Shown here: positions 1,770 to 9,332 of the stretch, piece by piece
How positions within the stretch are numbered: position 1 is the first letter of the stretch
Layout of the letters: each line of letters opens with the position of its first letter
IMG/VR virus record: IMGVR_UViG_3300037264_005018
Span: 1-41,224 of that record
Direction: 5' to 3' (one strand)
Length of the DNA stretch: 41,224 nt
Origin: a virus
Notes under the pieces: model-generated
The model's input: the letters and a program-made list of their open reading frames with translations, nothing else
The model's database searches: none
Told to the model about the DNA's origin: nothing
Position numbers and translations under genes: made by a program

Positions 1770-1873
1770 GCGAGCACCTCGACGGTCAGGGGGCGACGAT
1801 CAAGGTCGCCTGGCCCGAGGTCCAGCTCGAGGGCGATGCGCTCCTCTCACCCCAGATTCCGGAGCGCGCGTGA
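1766..1873 (+). CDS. Small hypothetical protein (35 aa) between the terminase genes
   Basis: This short frame starts with ATG overlapping the upstream stop (ATGA at 1766) and ends with TGA overlapping the GTG start of the large terminase (GTGA at 1870). The double overlap suggests translational coupling. The peptide has no Cys and no membrane segment, and no family is recognised. It could be a coupling ORF with no protein function. Confidence 0.45.
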   Translation: MSEHLDGQGATIKVAWPEVQLEGDALLSPQIPERA

Positions 1874-3528
1874 CGGCGCCGACGAGAGACCGCGTTGCGA
1901 AGCTCGGCAGGGGCCGCGCCGGTGTGACGATGGCAGGCGCGCTCGCAGGCGCCATCCTCGCGGCGTCAGCGGCCGCGCACCGCATTGAGTGGCCGTCTCC
2001 GAAGTGGCGCGACGACCCCGTCGGCTTCTTCCGCGACGTCGTGGGCGTGGAGCCGTGGAGCAAACAGGCCGAGATCATCGAGGCTGTTCGAGATCACAAG
2101 TTCGTGTCGGTCCGCGCCGGTCAGAAGGTCTCGAAGAGCCACGCTTGCGCCGGCCTCGCGCTCTGGTTTTACGCGTCGTTCCCAGATGCGCGCGTCGTGA
2201 TGACGAGCGTCACCGATCGACAGGTCAACCGCGTGCTGTGGCGCGAGCTCCGGAAAATGTACGCGCGCACCGGTCGCTGCGCGACATGCCGCAAGGACGA
2301 GCCGCGCGGCCCGCGCCCGTGTCCGCACTCGAGCGAGCTCGACGGCGAAATCTACGACCTGGCGCGCTCAGGTCTGAAAGGACCACCGCCGGACTTCCGT
2401 GAGATCGTCGGGTTCACGGCCAAGGAGAGCGAGGCGGTCGCCGGCTTCTCCGGCGCGAACCTGCTCTACATCGCCGACGAGGCCTCGGGGATCGCCGACG
2501 AGGTCATCGAGGCGATGCTCGGCAATTGCGCCGGCGGCGGGCGCGTCCTGCTGACTGGCAATCCGACGCGCATCGAGGGCTACTTCTACGACACCCATCA
2601 CTCGAAGCGCGAGCACTGGAAGACGCTCCACGTATCGAGCGAGGACAGCCCCAACGTGATCCAGGGTCGCGAGGTCATTCCAGGCCTCGCGGGCCGCGAG
2701 TGGGTCGAGCGGATGCGAGGCGAGTGGGGCGAGGACAGCGCCCTTTATCGCATCCGGGTCAAAGGCGAGTTCGCCGCGCTCGACGAGCAGCGCAAGGTGA
2801 TCCAGGTCTCGCTCGTCACCGACGCCGAGGAGCGTTGGTTCGACGAGGACAGCCTCGACACCTCGGGCCGGCTCCACGTTGGTGTCGACTGCGCGCGCTA
2901 CGGCGACGATGACGCGGCGATTGCGCCGCGCCGTGGCGATCGGGTGCTCGAGGTCGTCACGCACCAGAAGCTCAGCGAGAAGAAGCTCGCCTTCGAGGTG
3001 CTCCAGGTCGTGCGCGCGCACCGCAAGGCGGGCGAGCGCAAGGCGCTCGTGAAGGTGGACGCGTGCGGCACGATCGGGCGCACCGTCGCCTTCGAGCTCC
3101 GCGCGTACGAGGACGAGATCGAGATCGTCCCCGTCGACGTCTCGCGGCGCTCGACGCTCCCGAACGAGTATCCGCTCCTCCGCGATCAACTTTGGTTCGC
3201 GGCGCGCGGCTGGCTCAAAGAGGGCGGCGCGCTGCCGACCGATCCGAAGCTCGCGGCCGAGCTCGTCGCACCGCGGTTCAGCTTCGACGAGAGGGGCCGC
3301 CGCAAGGTGGAGCCCAAAGACATCACGCGGCAGACGCTCAAGCGCTCGCCGGACCGCGCAGACGCTGTGACGCTCTCCATCTGGGAGCCCAGCGCCCACC
3401 GCGCCGACGAGCCCGACGACGACCAGGGCGCCGAGGGCGAGCCTCCCCCGGCCGCGATGGACCCATACGCCACGGCTGGCGCTGACGCGCACGACAGCGG
3501 CATCGACCCCTATCGAGGCGTCTCGTGA
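1870..3528 (+). CDS. Terminase large subunit (ATPase and nuclease)
   Basis: Motor of DNA packaging: the ATPase pumps DNA into the prohead and the nuclease cuts the concatemer. The 552-residue protein shows an N-terminal ATPase with the deviant Walker A region RAGQKVSKS (about residue 79), Walker B NLLYIADEAS (about 198-207, with DE) and motif III LTGNPT (about 230). The C-terminal RNase H-like nuclease shows HVGVDCARYGDDDAA (first Asp, about 340), VKVDACGTIG (about 395) and DRADAV (last Asp, about 497). The insert CATC...CPH near 137-155 may bind zinc. The start is GTG 1870, coupled to the upstream stop. The stop overlaps the portal start. Confidence 0.9.
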   Translation: MTAPTRDRVAKLGRGRAGVTMAGALAGAILAASAAAHRIEWPSPKWRDDPVGFFRDVVGVEPWSKQAEIIEAVRDHKFVSVRAGQKVSKSHACAGLALWFYASFPDARVVMTSVTDRQVNRVLWRELRKMYARTGRCATCRKDEPRGPRPCPHSSELDGEIYDLARSGLKGPPPDFREIVGFTAKESEAVAGFSGANLLYIADEASGIADEVIEAMLGNCAGGGRVLLTGNPTRIEGYFYDTHHSKREHWKTLHVSSEDSPNVIQGREVIPGLAGREWVERMRGEWGEDSALYRIRVKGEFAALDEQRKVIQVSLVTDAEERWFDEDSLDTSGRLHVGVDCARYGDDDAAIAPRRGDRVLEVVTHQKLSEKKLAFEVLQVVRAHRKAGERKALVKVDACGTIGRTVAFELRAYEDEIEIVPVDVSRRSTLPNEYPLLRDQLWFAARGWLKEGGALPTDPKLAAELVAPRFSFDERGRRKVEPKDITRQTLKRSPDRADAVTLSIWEPSAHRADEPDDDQGAEGEPPPAAMDPYATAGADAHDSGIDPYRGVS

Positions 3529-5069
3529 TTGGGCGCGTGGTCCGCACCGTTCGCAGCGCGGTCGCCTCGCTGTTCGGCGTCCCGCTTGCGCCCGCGGCGC
3601 TCCCATCGGCGGCACCGGCGACGTCGACGGCACCCACCGCGGGGCGGTCACGGCGCCGAAAGAAGCGCGCGAGCCCGCAGACCTTCGCCAAGACGCGCTG
3701 GTACCAGCGCGACGTCGAGAGCGCGCAGCACCAAGCATCGAACGGCGACCTCGGGCTCGTCGGGCGCCTCTATCGAGCCTTCGCTCGCGACGGCTATGCG
3801 CAGCTCCTCGGCACGCGCGCGGGCGGCCTGATCCGTCTGCCGAAGCGCTTCAAGGGCGACCCCGAGGCGGTGGCCTTCCTCGAGGCCGGCGCCTTCAAGA
3901 AGGCGCTCCCATCGGCCGAGCTCGAGCTGATGGATCGCGACGGGTTCGTGGTCGGCGTTTCGATCGCCGAGTTCCTCGACGTCGACGGTCTCCCCTATCC
4001 GGTGCTCTGTCGGCTCGATCCTGAGTTCCTGCGCTACCACGCATGGGAGGACGCCTGGTACTACCAGACGACCAGCCGGCTCGAGCGTGTCGTCCCGGGG
4101 GATGGCCGGTGGGTCCTGCATCTCCGCGGCGGACGCGTGGAGCCGTGGAACAACGGGATCTGGCCCGCGCTCGGGCGCGCCTTCGTGTCGAAGGAGCACG
4201 CGCTCTACCTGCGCGACAACTGGCTCGGCAAGCTCGCCAACGCGGCGCGCGCGGCGGTGTCACCGCAGGGCGCGAGCGAGGAGCACGCGCAGTCGTGGTT
4301 TCAGAAGGTGATGGCGTGGGGCGTCAACACCGTGTTCGGCATGCGCCCCGGCTATGACGTCAAGCTCATCGAGAGCAACGGTCGAGGATTCGAGGGCTTC
4401 AAAGAGAGCATCGCCGACGCCAACCAAGAGTTCATGGTGGCGATTTCGGGCAGCACCGTGCTCGTCGACGGCGGGACGGGCTTCTCGAACCAGGACGTCC
4501 ATAAGTCGATCCGCGCCGACCTGATCCAGGGCGACGGCGACGCGCTCGCCGAGACGCTCGACGAGCAGGCGCTCCCGATCGTGCTCGAGGGCAACGTGCC
4601 TATCGGCTGTTGCGCGACCGTCGCGTGGGACACGCGCCCAGTCGCGAACATGAAGGCGGAGGCGGAGGCGCTCGTCGCGGCCGCCAAAGCGATCACGGAC
4701 CTGCGCGCCGCGCTCGAGCCCGACGGGATCCCGCTCGACACGCGGGCGCTCTGCGCGCGCTTCGCCGCTCCCGTGCGGGGCGACGTCGACGGCGACGCGA
4801 TCCCCGACGAGGAGATGCCGGACGGCTCCACGGGGAACGACGAAGCGGAGATGGACCCGGCGGACGCGCCCGAGCTCACGGACGAGGACGTCGCACTGCT
4901 CGCTGCGGAGATGACGCGGCACGGGATCGCTCGCTGCGAACACCAGCGCGTCAATCGCTGCCGGGACTGCGGCATCGAGCGCACGCGGGGCTTCAAGGTC
5001 GGTAAGGGAGGCGTCCCCGCGTGGCGCGTGTCGTGGCGGCCCATCCGCCGCCGGGCGGTCGCGGCATGA
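3525..5069 (+). CDS. Portal protein (Mu gp29/DUF935-like)
   Basis: Forms the dodecameric DNA gate at the capsid vertex. The 514-residue protein has the region ANQEFMVAISGSTVLVDGG followed by DVHKSIRADLIQGDGDALAETLDEQ, the pattern of the Mu-type (DUF935) portal family, where a helix before the C-terminal wing carries the RxDLIxxDA-like motif. Earlier signatures include MDRDGFVVGVSIAEF and WYYQTTSRLERV. The C-terminal 60 residues add a Cys/His cluster (CEHQRVNRCRDCGIER) that may bind zinc and is not a usual portal feature. GTG 3525 overlaps the terminase stop. Confidence 0.85.
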   Translation: MIGRVVRTVRSAVASLFGVPLAPAALPSAAPATSTAPTAGRSRRRKKRASPQTFAKTRWYQRDVESAQHQASNGDLGLVGRLYRAFARDGYAQLLGTRAGGLIRLPKRFKGDPEAVAFLEAGAFKKALPSAELELMDRDGFVVGVSIAEFLDVDGLPYPVLCRLDPEFLRYHAWEDAWYYQTTSRLERVVPGDGRWVLHLRGGRVEPWNNGIWPALGRAFVSKEHALYLRDNWLGKLANAARAAVSPQGASEEHAQSWFQKVMAWGVNTVFGMRPGYDVKLIESNGRGFEGFKESIADANQEFMVAISGSTVLVDGGTGFSNQDVHKSIRADLIQGDGDALAETLDEQALPIVLEGNVPIGCCATVAWDTRPVANMKAEAEALVAAAKAITDLRAALEPDGIPLDTRALCARFAAPVRGDVDGDAIPDEEMPDGSTGNDEAEMDPADAPELTDEDVALLAAEMTRHGIARCEHQRVNRCRDCGIERTRGFKVGKGGVPAWRVSWRPIRRRAVAA

Positions 5070-6133
5070 ACCGCCCCGACCTCAACACCATCGGACCTTA
5101 CTGGCTCCGCGCGCTGCGTCTCCTCGATTGGCGTGTCTCGTTCGAATACGTGCGCGACCTGTGCGCCGACGACGGCTCACCCGTTTACGGCCTGTGCTCA
5201 CGCGTCGTCGACAACAAGACGGCTCACATCCGCGTGCGCGACCCCGAGACGCCGATCCCCGGAGCCGTCGAGAACGACCCCGAAGAGGTGGTGATCCACG
5301 AGGTCTCACACCTGCACTTCGCGCCCTTCGACACGCGGCGTCCTGCTGAGGTCGCAGCGGAGGAGAACGCCGTATGGGCGTTTGCAGACGCACTGTTTGA
5401 ACACAAGGGCACTCCGCGTGCCCAGATGGTTGCGCGCGCCATGGTGGCTCACGCGCGCCCGCAGAAGGCTGCTGCGCCCGCAAGGGCCACCAGGAGAATG
5501 GTTATGGAAGGTCTCGCGATGTTGCTCGCGGCGCTCAAGGCGGCGCTTGCGATGGAGGACCCGCAGGCGGCCAAGGATGCCGCGTTGGGCATCCTGGCGG
5601 AGGCGGAGAAGGCCACAGGCAGCGCTCCGCCCGCGCCGGCAGAGGCGGCGCCGCCCGCGGAGGGCGAAGAGGAAGAGGAGCCCAAGCCTCCCGCGGCGAA
5701 GCCGGGAGCGACCAAGCCCGCTCCTGCGGCCCGCCCGGCGGCAACGAAGCCGCTCGACATGGCCGCCGTGCGCAAGATGGCGAGCGAGGCCGCGACGAGC
5801 ACGCTCGACGGCTACAAGCGCGACGAGCTGCTCGAGAAGAGCGGGAGCGCACTGTCGGCCGACGACCTCCGGTGGGCCAAGACGCAGCCGTACGACACCG
5901 TCCGTCGCATGGTCGGCCTCGCCGGCCCCAAGGAAGCGGCGAAGCCCTCGCCGCGTGGCACGTCGCCGGCGCGGGGCACGGGCACGGTCGACACGGTCGA
6001 GGACATCGTGAATCGGCGCATGGGGATCAAGGCCGTGCCGCCCCAGGCCGTCACCATCGATCCCATCTCCCGGAAGATGACGATCTCTGCTCTGCGCCCC
6101 GTGGTGGTGCAGAGCGCGGAAGGGGTGAAGTGA
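5066..6133 (+). CDS. Head maturation metalloprotease-like protein fused to scaffold
   Basis: Its position between portal and major capsid is where the capsid maturation protease and scaffold are encoded. Start ATG 5066 overlaps the portal stop. Residues 1-115 form a compact domain with VVIHEVSHLHF. HEVSH (78-82) is a zincin HExxH motif, and EE at 99-100 in a downstream helix could supply the third ligand. This resembles small phage metallopeptidase-like proteins with a VDDL...HELLHL pattern. Residues 147-355 are Ala/Pro/Glu-rich and helical, as in scaffolds. An internal SD and ATG at 5504 split the two halves. Protease activity on capsid proteins is inferred. Confidence 0.65.
   Translation: MNRPDLNTIGPYWLRALRLLDWRVSFEYVRDLCADDGSPVYGLCSRVVDNKTAHIRVRDPETPIPGAVENDPEEVVIHEVSHLHFAPFDTRRPAEVAAEENAVWAFADALFEHKGTPRAQMVARAMVAHARPQKAAAPARATRRMVMEGLAMLLAALKAALAMEDPQAAKDAALGILAEAEKATGSAPPAPAEAAPPAEGEEEEEPKPPAAKPGATKPAPAARPAATKPLDMAAVRKMASEAATSTLDGYKRDELLEKSGSALSADDLRWAKTQPYDTVRRMVGLAGPKEAAKPSPRGTSPARGTGTVDTVEDIVNRRMGIKAVPPQAVTIDPISRKMTISALRPVVVQSAEGVK
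5504..6133 (+). CDS. Nested in-frame scaffold protein (internal start)
   Basis: An internal ATG at 5504 (Met147 of the longer protein) is preceded by AGGAG at 5492-5496 with 7-nt spacing, one of the best ribosome binding sites in the module. It falls exactly at the boundary between the HExxH domain and the low-complexity helical part. Initiation here would make a separate 209-residue scaffold sharing the C-terminus of the protease. This copies the known nested protease/scaffold layout of lambda C/Nu3 and Mu I/Z. ATG 5498 is an alternative start. The product is inferred from layout. Confidence 0.6.
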   Translation: MEGLAMLLAALKAALAMEDPQAAKDAALGILAEAEKATGSAPPAPAEAAPPAEGEEEEEPKPPAAKPGATKPAPAARPAATKPLDMAAVRKMASEAATSTLDGYKRDELLEKSGSALSADDLRWAKTQPYDTVRRMVGLAGPKEAAKPSPRGTSPARGTGTVDTVEDIVNRRMGIKAVPPQAVTIDPISRKMTISALRPVVVQSAEGVK

Positions 6134-6134
6134 C

Positions 6135-7550
6135 ATGGCCGCGCTCCTCAAGGATCGGCCCGGCCGCATCGAGAAGATCGACCGCGCGAAGCTGCCTTTG
6201 AAGGCGGCCACCAAGGTCTACAAGGGCGGAGCCGCCGTCGCCGACATCGGTGCTCTGAGCGCCTCGCGCGGCTTCATCACGAAGGGCGCGGCGGCCGCCG
6301 ATCTGCTGGCGATCGGCCGGTTCAGTGAGACCATCGACAACACCGGCGCCAACGGCGCGAAGAGCGCCGAGGTCATCTTCCCGCGCGAGATCCATACGAT
6401 CTGGTGGGACAACGACACCGGCACTCCGGTCGTCGCCGCGGATCGCTTCTCGAAGTGCTATTTCGTCGACGACCATACGGTCACGTCGGATCCGACCGGG
6501 TCCAGCGTCGCCGGCATCGTGTTCGAGGTGCATGACACGCTCGTCGCCGTCATCCCGGCGGCGGCGACGGAGGGCTTCGACGCCAGTACGGCGGCCGACG
6601 TTCCCATCGTCGACGCGCTCGGGAAGTACACGAGCGGCAACGTCGAGGGCGCGCTCGCCGAGGCCACGACGACGGCGGAGCTCGCGGACACCGGTGGAGC
6701 GGACCTCATCGGCTTCGGGAGCATCACGGTCGGCGACAAGCTCGCTCTGCCCGACGTCGAGGTGTTCGACGTGTCGGGCACCTGGAGCAAGCCCGACGGG
6801 TGCACGACGGTGCACGTCATCGCGATCGGCGGCGGCGGCGGCGGTGGCTCCGGGGGCAACGACACGAGTGACAGCGGCGGCGGCGGCGGCGCGGGCGGGA
6901 CGATCGTCGAGGCGGTGTTCAAGGCCTCGGAGATCGGCGCGACCGTCACCGTCACCATCGGCGACGGTGGCACTGGCGGCGCGGCGAAGGCGGTGGCTGG
7001 CGACGGCAACGACGGGACCGACGGGGCTGCGTCGACGTTCGGCACGCTGCTGAGCGGACCGGGCGGCGCGAAGGGCCTCAAGGGTACCAACGCGTCGGGC
7101 ACGGCGGGCGCGGCGCTCACCACTCGCTACGTCAAGATCGGAGGCGCGGGCGGCGCGGGCAACGACGACTCCGCGGGTGTCGACGGCGAGCGCAGCTTCG
7201 CCGGTGGCGGCGGCGGCGGCGGCGGCGGCATCGACACCTCGAACCGCGCAGGCGGCGCGGGCGGTGGGCAGCCCTCGGGCACCACGGCGACCGCAGGCGG
7301 TGGTACCGCCGGCGCAGCTCCTGGCGGTGCCGGTGGAGCCGGCGCGGCGGCTGCGGCGGTCCAGCTCTGCCTCGGCGGCGCGGGCGGCGGTGGCGGCGCG
7401 GGGCGCGCGGCGGGCGGCAACGGCGGCGCCGGCGCCGTCGGTGGTGTGCCTGGCGGCGGCGGCGGCGGCTCCGGCGCTGGCGGCGCTGGCGTCGAGAGCG
7501 GCGTCGGCGGCGCGGGCGGCAAGGGCCGAGTCGTCGTCATCGCCTACTGA
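6135..7550 (+). CDS. Capsid decoration protein with C-terminal polyglycine domain
   Basis: Residues 1-145 read like a small capsid decoration (head stabilisation) protein: VYKGGAAVADIGALSASRGF, then VHDTLVAVIP. From about 205 a different module begins (VFDVSGTWSKPDGCTTVHVIAIGGGGGGG), the typical opening of phage glycine-rich adhesin domains, where T/W-xxPxG precedes a beta strand and Gly tracts. About 260 residues of GGAGG-type repeats follow, ending GRVVVIAY. Such domains fold as polyglycine-II sandwiches in T4-like gp38 adhesins. Here the domain would be displayed on the head. The gene starts 1 nt after the upstream stop and precedes the major capsid gene. Confidence 0.65.
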   Translation: MAALLKDRPGRIEKIDRAKLPLKAATKVYKGGAAVADIGALSASRGFITKGAAAADLLAIGRFSETIDNTGANGAKSAEVIFPREIHTIWWDNDTGTPVVAADRFSKCYFVDDHTVTSDPTGSSVAGIVFEVHDTLVAVIPAAATEGFDASTAADVPIVDALGKYTSGNVEGALAEATTTAELADTGGADLIGFGSITVGDKLALPDVEVFDVSGTWSKPDGCTTVHVIAIGGGGGGGSGGNDTSDSGGGGGAGGTIVEAVFKASEIGATVTVTIGDGGTGGAAKAVAGDGNDGTDGAASTFGTLLSGPGGAKGLKGTNASGTAGAALTTRYVKIGGAGGAGNDDSAGVDGERSFAGGGGGGGGGIDTSNRAGGAGGGQPSGTTATAGGGTAGAAPGGAGGAGAAAAAVQLCLGGAGGGGGAGRAAGGNGGAGAVGGVPGGGGGGSGAGGAGVESGVGGAGGKGRVVVIAY

Positions 7551-7577: not shown

Positions 7578-8624
7578 ATGAACATCATCGTACAGCCGCA
7601 GATCGTCAGGCAGATCGAAGACAACATCCGCGCGATCCTCGTGAGCGCGTGGGCGCGACGCGAGAAGGAGCAGTGGTGGCGGCGCCTCATGAAGACGCGC
7701 ACCAGCAACACGAAGAGGGAGATCCTCCAGTGGATGCTCGAGACGGCCGGCATTCACCCCATGGGCAACGGCGGCCGGTACACGTTCGACGATCTCACCG
7801 AGATCTACTGGGAGATCATCAACGAGAAGCACGGCGCCGCCCTCAACATCAGCGTCGACGACATCGAGGACGCCGACGGTTCGGGGCTCGACAGAGCGGG
7901 CCAGTGGGCCAAGCACATCGGCAACAGCGGCGCGGCGTGGCCGCAAGAGGAGGCGGCGCGCCTCCTCCGCGAGGGCACGACGCTGCTCTGCTACGACGGG
8001 CTCGCCTTCTTCCACGCGTCGCACCCGGTCAACGCGTACGTCGGGGCGTCGAGTGGCACCTTCCCGAACCTCATCACCGGCAGGCCGTTCAGCCCGGCGA
8101 ACCTCGCGTACGTCTACTCCGTCGTCGAGGCCATCCCGGCGCCCGATGGGAAGAAGCGCAAGCTGAAGCCCAGGATCGTGGCCGGCGGTCCTGCCGAGCG
8201 ACTCCAGATCACCCAGTCGCTCCTCGCGACCTTCATCTCCGACCCGGTGCGCAACGGCGGGGCGAGCGCGTCGAACGTCATCTCGACGAACTACGGGTTC
8301 GCCGAGCCGATCATCGACGCGGACTTCGACGAGACCGATGAGGTCTACATCGACGACGACACCGGGGCTCGCTCCGCGGTGCAGTCGGCGGGCGCGGGCA
8401 AGTCGTTGCAGACCCGAGGCGTCTGGTACGTGGCCTGCGAGCTCATGGAGGACGACGAGCTCGGCGGGCTCATCTACCAGGAGCGCAAGCCGTTCGAGAT
8501 GAACAGCTACTCGCCGATGGACGATGCGGCGCTCGGGCGACTCGATGCCTTCGAGTGGCAGTTCAAGGGCCGCAACGCAGCGTCGTATGGGCACCCGTTT
8601 CTTTTGTATCGGATTGAGCCTTGA
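7578..8624 (+). CDS. Major capsid protein (Mu gpT-like)
   Basis: Main shell subunit. The 348-residue protein resembles the Mu gpT family: WLETAGIHP-like early region (here WMLETAGIHPMGNGGRYTFDDL), then DGLAFFHASHPVN, followed by TFPNLITGRPFSPANLAYVY. The DGxxFFxxxHPVN motif and following F/SxxNL are typical of gpT. The late segment RGVWYVACEL...QERKPFEMN corresponds to the strand-rich C-terminal domain with WxxC/xExR/KPF. Position after scaffold and decoration genes agrees. It is followed by an inserted HNH gene. Confidence 0.85.
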   Translation: MNIIVQPQIVRQIEDNIRAILVSAWARREKEQWWRRLMKTRTSNTKREILQWMLETAGIHPMGNGGRYTFDDLTEIYWEIINEKHGAALNISVDDIEDADGSGLDRAGQWAKHIGNSGAAWPQEEAARLLREGTTLLCYDGLAFFHASHPVNAYVGASSGTFPNLITGRPFSPANLAYVYSVVEAIPAPDGKKRKLKPRIVAGGPAERLQITQSLLATFISDPVRNGGASASNVISTNYGFAEPIIDADFDETDEVYIDDDTGARSAVQSAGAGKSLQTRGVWYVACELMEDDELGGLIYQERKPFEMNSYSPMDDAALGRLDAFEWQFKGRNAASYGHPFLLYRIEP

Positions 8625-8648: not shown

Positions 8649-9332
8649 ATGGAAGCGCTGAAGCTGGTGACTAACGATACCGCTACGAGCACGTGCTCGA
8701 CGTGCGGTGTCGTGAAGCCTGTTGCCAGCTTCACCCATCGTGGCGGCAAGCTGCGGGGCACGTGCAAGGACTGCCAGGCTGCCCGCCGCGCTCACCGGGC
8801 GGCGGAGCTTGCGAAGGCTGGTTCGCTCTCGTGCTCCGCGTGCAGAGTCGAGAAGTCCGCCGAGCAGTTCAGCCTTAAGGCAAGGGGCAGCCGTCTTTGC
8901 AGGGAGTGTCAGAACGGACGTGCGCGTGAGTGGTACGCCAACAACATCGACCACGCCCGCGACTACCACCGGCTGAAGGCGCGGGGGTACTACTCGTTCA
9001 GCCGCGAGTTCGACCCCATTCGCTGGATGCTGAACCTCTGCCGCAACCGCGCGCACAGCAGCGGAATCCCGTTCGATCTCACGCGCGAGGACATCTTCCT
9101 CCCGGAGTTCTGCCCGGTGCTCGGCATCCGCCTCCGACGACCAGGAGAGGGGCAGGCGAACGACTCGCCCTCGCTCGATCGGATCGACGCGACCCGCGGC
9201 TACGTGCGCGGCGGCTACGTGCGCGGCAACGTGGCGATCATTTCGATGCTCGCCAACCGGCTCAAGAACAACGGGACGGCAGAGCAGCACGAGCGGATCG
9301 CCGCGTGGATGCGCGCGCAGGGAGCACGCTGA
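8649..9332 (+). CDS. HNH-type endonuclease with two zinc ribbons, possible homing enzyme
   Basis: A 227-residue nuclease-like protein. The N-terminus has two CxxC/CxxC ribbons (CSTCGVVK...CKDCQ and CSACRVEK...CRECQ, residues about 16-90). Residues about 130-210 show FCPVLGIRL, DSPSLDRID and VRGNVAIISMLANRLKNN, the pattern of a widespread phage endonuclease family related to HNH/endonuclease VII enzymes. Lying between major capsid and connector genes, it resembles a free-standing homing endonuclease (inference). A 15-bp tandem duplication (9198-9212 and 9213-9227) repeats GYVRG at residues 184-193 near the active region. The stop overlaps the next ATG. Confidence 0.7.
   Translation: MEALKLVTNDTATSTCSTCGVVKPVASFTHRGGKLRGTCKDCQAARRAHRAAELAKAGSLSCSACRVEKSAEQFSLKARGSRLCRECQNGRAREWYANNIDHARDYHRLKARGYYSFSREFDPIRWMLNLCRNRAHSSGIPFDLTREDIFLPEFCPVLGIRLRRPGEGQANDSPSLDRIDATRGYVRGGYVRGNVAIISMLANRLKNNGTAEQHERIAAWMRAQGAR

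Follow-up and report, generated by a model that had tools for sequence, protein, structure and literature searches.

A phage protease–scaffold gene with a putative zincin-type metalloprotease domain in the place of the serine protease

Introduction

The I/Z genes of phage Mu and the C/Nu3 genes of phage lambda are protease–scaffold genes, in which an N-terminal protease is followed by a C-terminal scaffold that has an internal start of its own. The gene described here resembles these systems (Mu-like_Pro, PF10123, and Peptidase_S49, PF01343) in its position between portal and capsid genes, a putative N-terminal protease domain, a homologous scaffold tail and a candidate internal start, but differs in carrying a predicted zincin-type HExxH domain instead of the serine protease. 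Exchange of head proteases is not in itself new, as Liu and Mushegian reportedly described in 2004 prohead protease genes which had been displaced between assemblin-like and ClpP-like serine types. In both, proteases that are unrelated take each other's place at a single position of the late operon; the present case would, however, bring in a third catalytic class, with the domain swapped inside one frame and the scaffold tail kept.

Host enzymes may also serve, as in phage 80alpha, where the account in PMC5744158 has the host protease Prp do the cutting. For a phage metalloprotease the one precedent found is a sentence published in 2023 on Vibrio phage XM1, which suggests that gp46, a Spartan-like metalloprotease, is a possible prohead protease (PMC10457771). 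By that description gp46 is alike in its proposed class and role, but by its number it precedes the terminase (gp48) and the portal (gp49), and the account identifies no scaffold in XM1 (PMC10457771). A metalloprotease–scaffold fusion was not found in the open-licence literature. The zincin core is described as a helix, three strands and two helices with HEXXH and E, and the zincin-like peptidases of phage polyvalent proteins, by their description, have this same core; these are large multidomain injected proteins, however, encoded outside the portal–capsid slot (PMC5512222).

Results

The window and its head genes

The window, by which we mean the whole stretch of DNA analysed (41,224 bases), carries a 355-aa fusion gene between a Mu-type portal gene and a Mu gpT-type capsid gene (Table 1). 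The gene before the portal had no Pfam match and is named from its context. The gene which follows the fusion encodes a decoration-type protein whose long C-terminal domain is rich in glycine (PF21722) and of a type otherwise known from tail proteins. A 227-aa gene with two CxxC pairs (8649-9332) separates the capsid gene from the head gene that comes next; by eye it resembles a free-standing HNH-type endonuclease insertion, and Pfam gave a sub-threshold Stc1 match only.

The first ATG of the fusion gene overlaps the portal stop as ATGA and has no strong ribosome site upstream; an alternative upstream opening of the frame is GTG 5021. The overlap and the lack of a strong site would fit a full-length form made at a low level. 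An earlier note, made from the letters of this DNA, had pointed to HEVSH with a downstream EE, to an Ala/Pro/Glu scaffold-like half and to an AGGAG before an ATG at the boundary between the two. All were recovered: both motifs lie in the frame from ATG 5066, the Ala/Pro/Glu linker is present and the tail behind it is matched by a profile of Mu-I tails (below), and the AGGAG precedes ATG 5504 at a spacing of 7, from which the frame runs for 209 aa.

Table 1. Coordinates of the features of the window, with the related loci grouped by the protease type of the gene concerned
Feature	Coordinates or loci	Strand	Basis or remark
Window: IMG/VR virus record IMGVR_UViG_3300037264_005018	1-41,224		41,224 bases, G+C 70%
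Putative large terminase subunit gene	1870..3528	+	named by place, neighbours and homologues beside homologous portals
Mu-type portal gene, flanking	3525..5069	+	PF06074, E 1.2e-28
Putative metalloprotease–scaffold fusion gene, 355 aa	5066..6133	+	between Mu-type portal and Mu gpT-type capsid
Predicted N-terminal zincin-like domain, residues 1-144	5066..5497	+	AlphaFold model of residues 1-146; alignment of 55 domains
HEVSH, residues 78-82, within helix 72-88	5297..5311	+	HExxH invariant in 7 fusions
EE, residues 99-100, within helix 93-112	5360..5365	+	E100 conserved in 90% or more of the 55 aligned domains
Internal Shine-Dalgarno AGGAG	5492..5496	+
Scaffold part, 209 aa, from internal ATG 5504	5504..6133	+	Ala/Pro/Glu linker between predicted helices
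RRMGI, residues 317-321	6014..6028	+	in tail common to Mu-I, S78 and S49 fusions
Gene after the fusion	6135-7550		phrog_1731 virion-protein N-terminus (residues 1-139), glycine-rich C-terminus
Mu gpT-type major capsid protein gene, flanking	7578..8624	+	PF10124, E 1.2e-18
Boundary ATGs of the seven distinct fusions	window 5504; L024 6412; L003 4738; L015 6487; L018 2939; L020 4390; L023 6421
S49-type loci	L007, L009, L010, L011, L012, L013, L014		L009 by phrog_53 only, frame broken in record
Mu-I-type loci	L004, L005
S78-type locus	L008
HExxH fusions among portal-found loci	L002, L003, L006		L003 and L006 are the same gene
L023			deltaproteobacterial MAG
L024			Sorangium cellulosum So ceGT47 prophage; same gene as L002

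The N-terminal domain

The HExxH motif alone says little, because it occurs in two of the 261 six-frame ORFs (at least 60 aa) of the window. A chance motif is ruled out by its presence in all seven distinct fusions, which were found through patterns without HExxH, together with a confident zincin-like model. H78, E79, H82, E99 and E100 are identical in 7/7, at an overall identity to the window protein of 27-40%, and E100 is likely to be the third ligand of the putative metal site.

Searches of Pfam, PHROG and NCBIfam gave no match to the fusion protein, and membership of the serine head-protease families S49, S78 and Mu-I was rejected as PF01343, PF04586 and PF10123 were not matched. The window likewise did not pass the curated cut-off of the SprT-like family PF10263 (no Pfam family did so); two of 55 relatives matched it at E 0.01 or better.

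Residues 1-146 were modelled with AlphaFold from an alignment (A5) of 55 domains, comprising the seven fused ones and 48 of 76 unfused relatives picked by eye, avoiding near-copies and doubtful starts; because one scan had used the pattern VHELxH, the conservation of HExxH in A5 is in part built in. The model (mean pLDDT 93.3, pTM 0.84) begins with a helix (6-16), continues with three strands (23-29, 42-47, 52-58) and ends in helices 72-88, 93-112 and 117-130, with HEVSH and E100 on successive helices. The succession of a first helix, three strands and the two helices behind them reproduces the zincin core topology, in the order of elements given in PMC5512222. In the model of the full-length protein the scaffold half was poor (mean pLDDT 63.9).

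The comparison with zincins proposed in the earlier note yielded a confident zincin core, with weak matches to solved structures. Foldseek against the PDB gave selecase as best match at E 0.028 and none below 0.001, and a second structure comparison gave middling Z values for YbeY (8.3), Spartan (7.9), selecase (7.0), IrrE (6.3) and thermolysin (5.6); the neighbours are mostly zincins, although the top one, YbeY, is an RNase. In a library of viral structures the best match (E 1.4e-6) was a phage protein named SprT-like/Spartan, and a profile search of PDB sequences returned MJ1213 (selecase) at 0.025 and Spartan at 0.16. Selecase and the minigluzincins (MJ1213, abylysin), Spartan/SprT and IrrE share the small zincin fold and HExxH with a downstream ligand, and are among the best neighbours, but they are free-standing, have no scaffold and score weakly against the window domain. 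The predicted domain is well supported at the level of the zincin fold class, though not at that of the nearest family.

Protease types between portal and capsid

Thirteen virus loci came from a scan with the portal, and in every one of them the gene that follows the portal has a protease-type domain: S49 in seven, Mu-I in two, S78 in one and HExxH in three, two of which are copies of one gene (Table 1). Scans with domain alignments added three virus fusions, L015, L018 and L020, together with L023 and L024, and the set of distinct metallo fusions used below (n = 7) consists of the window, L024, L003, L015, L018, L020 and L023. By tblastn the window portal matched 17 of 18 sequences (all but L015) and the window capsid all 18, L015 and L007 weakly, where the 18 are the window and 17 loci with L002 and L024 both counted. 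The fusion in L015 (4570-5973) is accompanied by a terminase and a gpT-type capsid, which also matches PF10124, in an order unlike the other six; tblastn with the portals of the window and of L018 found no portal homologue upstream of it.

The relatives came by way of the portal and then of alignments. Single-sequence scans with the window protein gave no relatives, nor did tblastn searches of 50,697 phage records with this protein and with the L003 domain; one further alignment scan returned known loci only, and 11 loci added by a later one were all unfused. Eight of 377 Myxococcota genomes matched: two held fusions already known, five held short HExxH proteins or odd frames, and one was a split locus, L108. 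L107, L109 and L110 (1492-2016), also Myxococcota, encode a HEVMH protein of 174 aa whose C-terminal tail is longer, and a conserved gene of 447-448 aa comes after it.

A second head protease (S49, phrog_80 (S78), Mu-I, S78_2 or ClpP) was found neither in the window, where this candidate is rejected on the five families searched, nor in the 5/5 other metallo virus records; as virus records may be fragments, such a result is no proof of absence.

Scaffold tails behind different proteases

Profile HMMs of the C-terminal tails were searched against 3197 locus ORFs and 16 fusion proteins. The Mu-I tail HMM (two tails) matched two of the seven metallo fusions, L024 (4e-18) and the window (8.9e-7). 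A serine-type tail HMM (eight tails, L007 being left out as its tail looked different) matched three of the seven, L024 (8.6e-10), L018 (9.2e-5) and L023 (9.5e-4), though not the window itself. In the reverse direction, the metallo tail HMM (seven tails) matched three of nine serine fusions, L004 (5.7e-12), L005 (1.8e-11) and the S49 fusion L013 (4.2e-6), with the next non-fusion match at E 1.2. By eye, many tails have in common RG..G and then a helix ending D..MGI. On these profile matches the scaffold tails behind different protease domains are homologous.

Trees of portals and domains

In a portal tree of 16 rows, which omits L002 and L006 (copies of L024 and L003) and L015 (no portal match nearby), the metallo label falls in two places split by a 100/97 branch: the window, L024, L003 and L020 stand beside Mu-I phages, whereas L018 and L023 stand among S49/S78 phages. 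A single group of the six metallo portals was rejected (AU p 0.0145), a result to be read with the reservation that the group was named after the tree had been seen. In the domain tree the seven fused domains form one clade (99/91), apart from the 48 unfused ones. As the fused domains are one clade and the portals are not, the simplest reading of these trees is that a single fusion took place and that the fused domain was later transferred between head modules.

Unfused relatives of the domain

The VHELxH scan gave 80 loci and, with L022 and L025, 76 were read as unfused genes, mostly of 120-170 aa; one of these, L089, lacks HExxH in the frame that was read. A homologue of a query head gene was recognised in 32 of the 76, and a frequent order around the unfused genes is terminase, portal, MuF, HExxH, scaffold. 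Ten downstream neighbours were scanned, of which eight (L027, L040, L043, L051, L054, L086, L087, L090) matched a PHROG scaffolding family, their genes starting 20-127 nt after the HExxH gene; the neighbour in L033 had no match and that in L045 matched families of unknown function. Twelve virus records with an unfused HExxH gene beside head genes, mostly fragments, gave no S78 and no phrog_53 match, and in a thirteenth record, the Sporolactobacillus genome of L025, one S78 match lies somewhere in the genome. The C-terminal part of the MuF minor head protein of this Sporolactobacillus prophage (L025, 6393-7841) gave a sub-threshold match of RelA/SpoT type (PF04607, E 2.2e-4).

A probable internal start

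Two ATGs follow the internal AGGAG of the window, ATG 5498 at a spacing of 1, which is too close, and then ATG 5504. An in-frame ATG preceded by AGGAG, GGAGG or AGGAGG at a spacing of 6-9 lies 63-81 residues past HExxH in all seven fusions, and one of the same kind is present in four of the nine serine-type fusions (L004, L008, L010, L014). Such a site occurs at 7/22 boundary ATGs (one per gene), against 3/230 in-frame ATGs inside other genes of these loci (Fisher 1.5e-6), a comparison which should be considered with caution as the background was hand-picked and the limits on spacing and boundary were fixed after the sites were seen. A stricter control, in which the protein was kept and synonymous codons were permuted, gave p values of 0.72 for the window, 0.086 for L024, 0.935 for L003, 0.0145 for L015, 0.1355 for L018, 0.0085 for L020 and 0.005 for L023, combining to 4.7e-4. 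The site of the window alone is therefore no better than chance given its protein, and only the seven genes jointly beat chance.

L108 (1043-2244) is a natural split of the protease–scaffold fusion, in which the gene for a Mu-I protease (PF10123, 9.8e-20) overlaps the scaffold gene behind it. The product of this scaffold gene opens with MGMDP, and its homology to the fused scaffold of L015 extends from the first residues (blastp 6e-15), with no direct homology to the window (E 1.5). Because the two genes are split here, a free scaffold beginning where the internal start lies is encoded elsewhere.

It is conceivable that the internal start is not used and that only the long form is made, or that the scaffold is released from it by cleavage; the high codon-shuffle values of the window and L003 would agree with this. 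However, the excess at boundary ATGs, the combined value over the seven genes and the free scaffold gene of L108 make such a reading rather unlikely, and an internal start for the scaffold alone is a likely conserved signal of all seven fusions.

Discussion

The fusion gene most probably encodes a head maturation (prohead) protease together with its scaffold, in which a zincin-fold (gluzincin-like) metalloprotease domain has replaced the serine protease. The idea of the earlier note, that a metalloprotease stands in for the serine protease in the same genetic layout, has held up: S49, S78 and Mu-I proteases occupy the same slot, the tail is homologous, the predicted fold is that of a zincin and all seven fusions have the internal site. 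The layout itself was already known. The novelty lies in the catalytic class, which has its one-sentence precedent in XM1 gp46, and in the evidence that one domain was exchanged for another before a kept scaffold.

We infer the following course. Translation from ATG 5066 would give the full-length protease–scaffold and the internal site at ATG 5504 the 209-aa scaffold alone, in a stoichiometry in which the former is the scarcer; both products would co-assemble in the shell through their common scaffold part, so that some copies of the protease are carried in. Once the shell is complete the domain, presumably with zinc bound, would cut the scaffold; the domain itself, the N-terminus of the capsid protein or the portal may be further substrates. 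The fragments would then leave and the DNA be packed.

A zincin domain with an active metal site could instead act elsewhere, on a host protein, on DNA–protein crosslinks like Spartan or on RNA like YbeY, and merely be carried in the head by the scaffold. The best structural neighbours include both of these enzymes (YbeY, Z 8.3; Spartan, Z 7.9), and as a known head gene was recognised near 32/76 unfused relatives, not all of them lie in head clusters. However, the domain sits in the slot of three other head-protease types, before a homologous scaffold, and the metallo virus records yielded no further head protease of a known kind, so we regard this explanation as unlikely. It is less probable again that the domain is degenerate or a purely structural leftover and that the scaffold exits the head uncut. 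Some phage scaffolds are described as leaving without cleavage (PMC3185693), but H78, E79, H82, E99 and E100 have stayed identical in 7/7 fusions despite 27-40% overall identity to the window protein. A metal-dependent oxygenase of the alpha-ketoglutarate HExxH peptide hydroxylase type, with no protease, is hardly credible, as the weak match of L024 to TIGR04267 (E 3.7e-4, 20.6 bits) is under the cut-off of 40 and is the one match among 10 proteins scanned, the window has none, and the model has zincin topology.

A wider metallo head-protease class is plausible from the gene neighbourhoods, although SPP1-type heads manage without a protease. The unfused HExxH genes upstream of scaffold genes may be overlooked head maturation proteases, the domain of one lineage having joined a Mu/lambda-type scaffold and displaced the serine protease, and the fused metallodomain having moved by recombination between head modules. 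We put this forward tentatively, as an account that is somewhat more likely to fail than to hold in full.

The finding should help to annotate a family which is hardly covered by Pfam and PHROGs. The loci also offer natural protease swaps in homologous heads. If a metalloprotease does fill the same role with the same scaffold, it would follow that a phage head conserves the carrier of its protease and the slot for it, whereas the chemistry may change.
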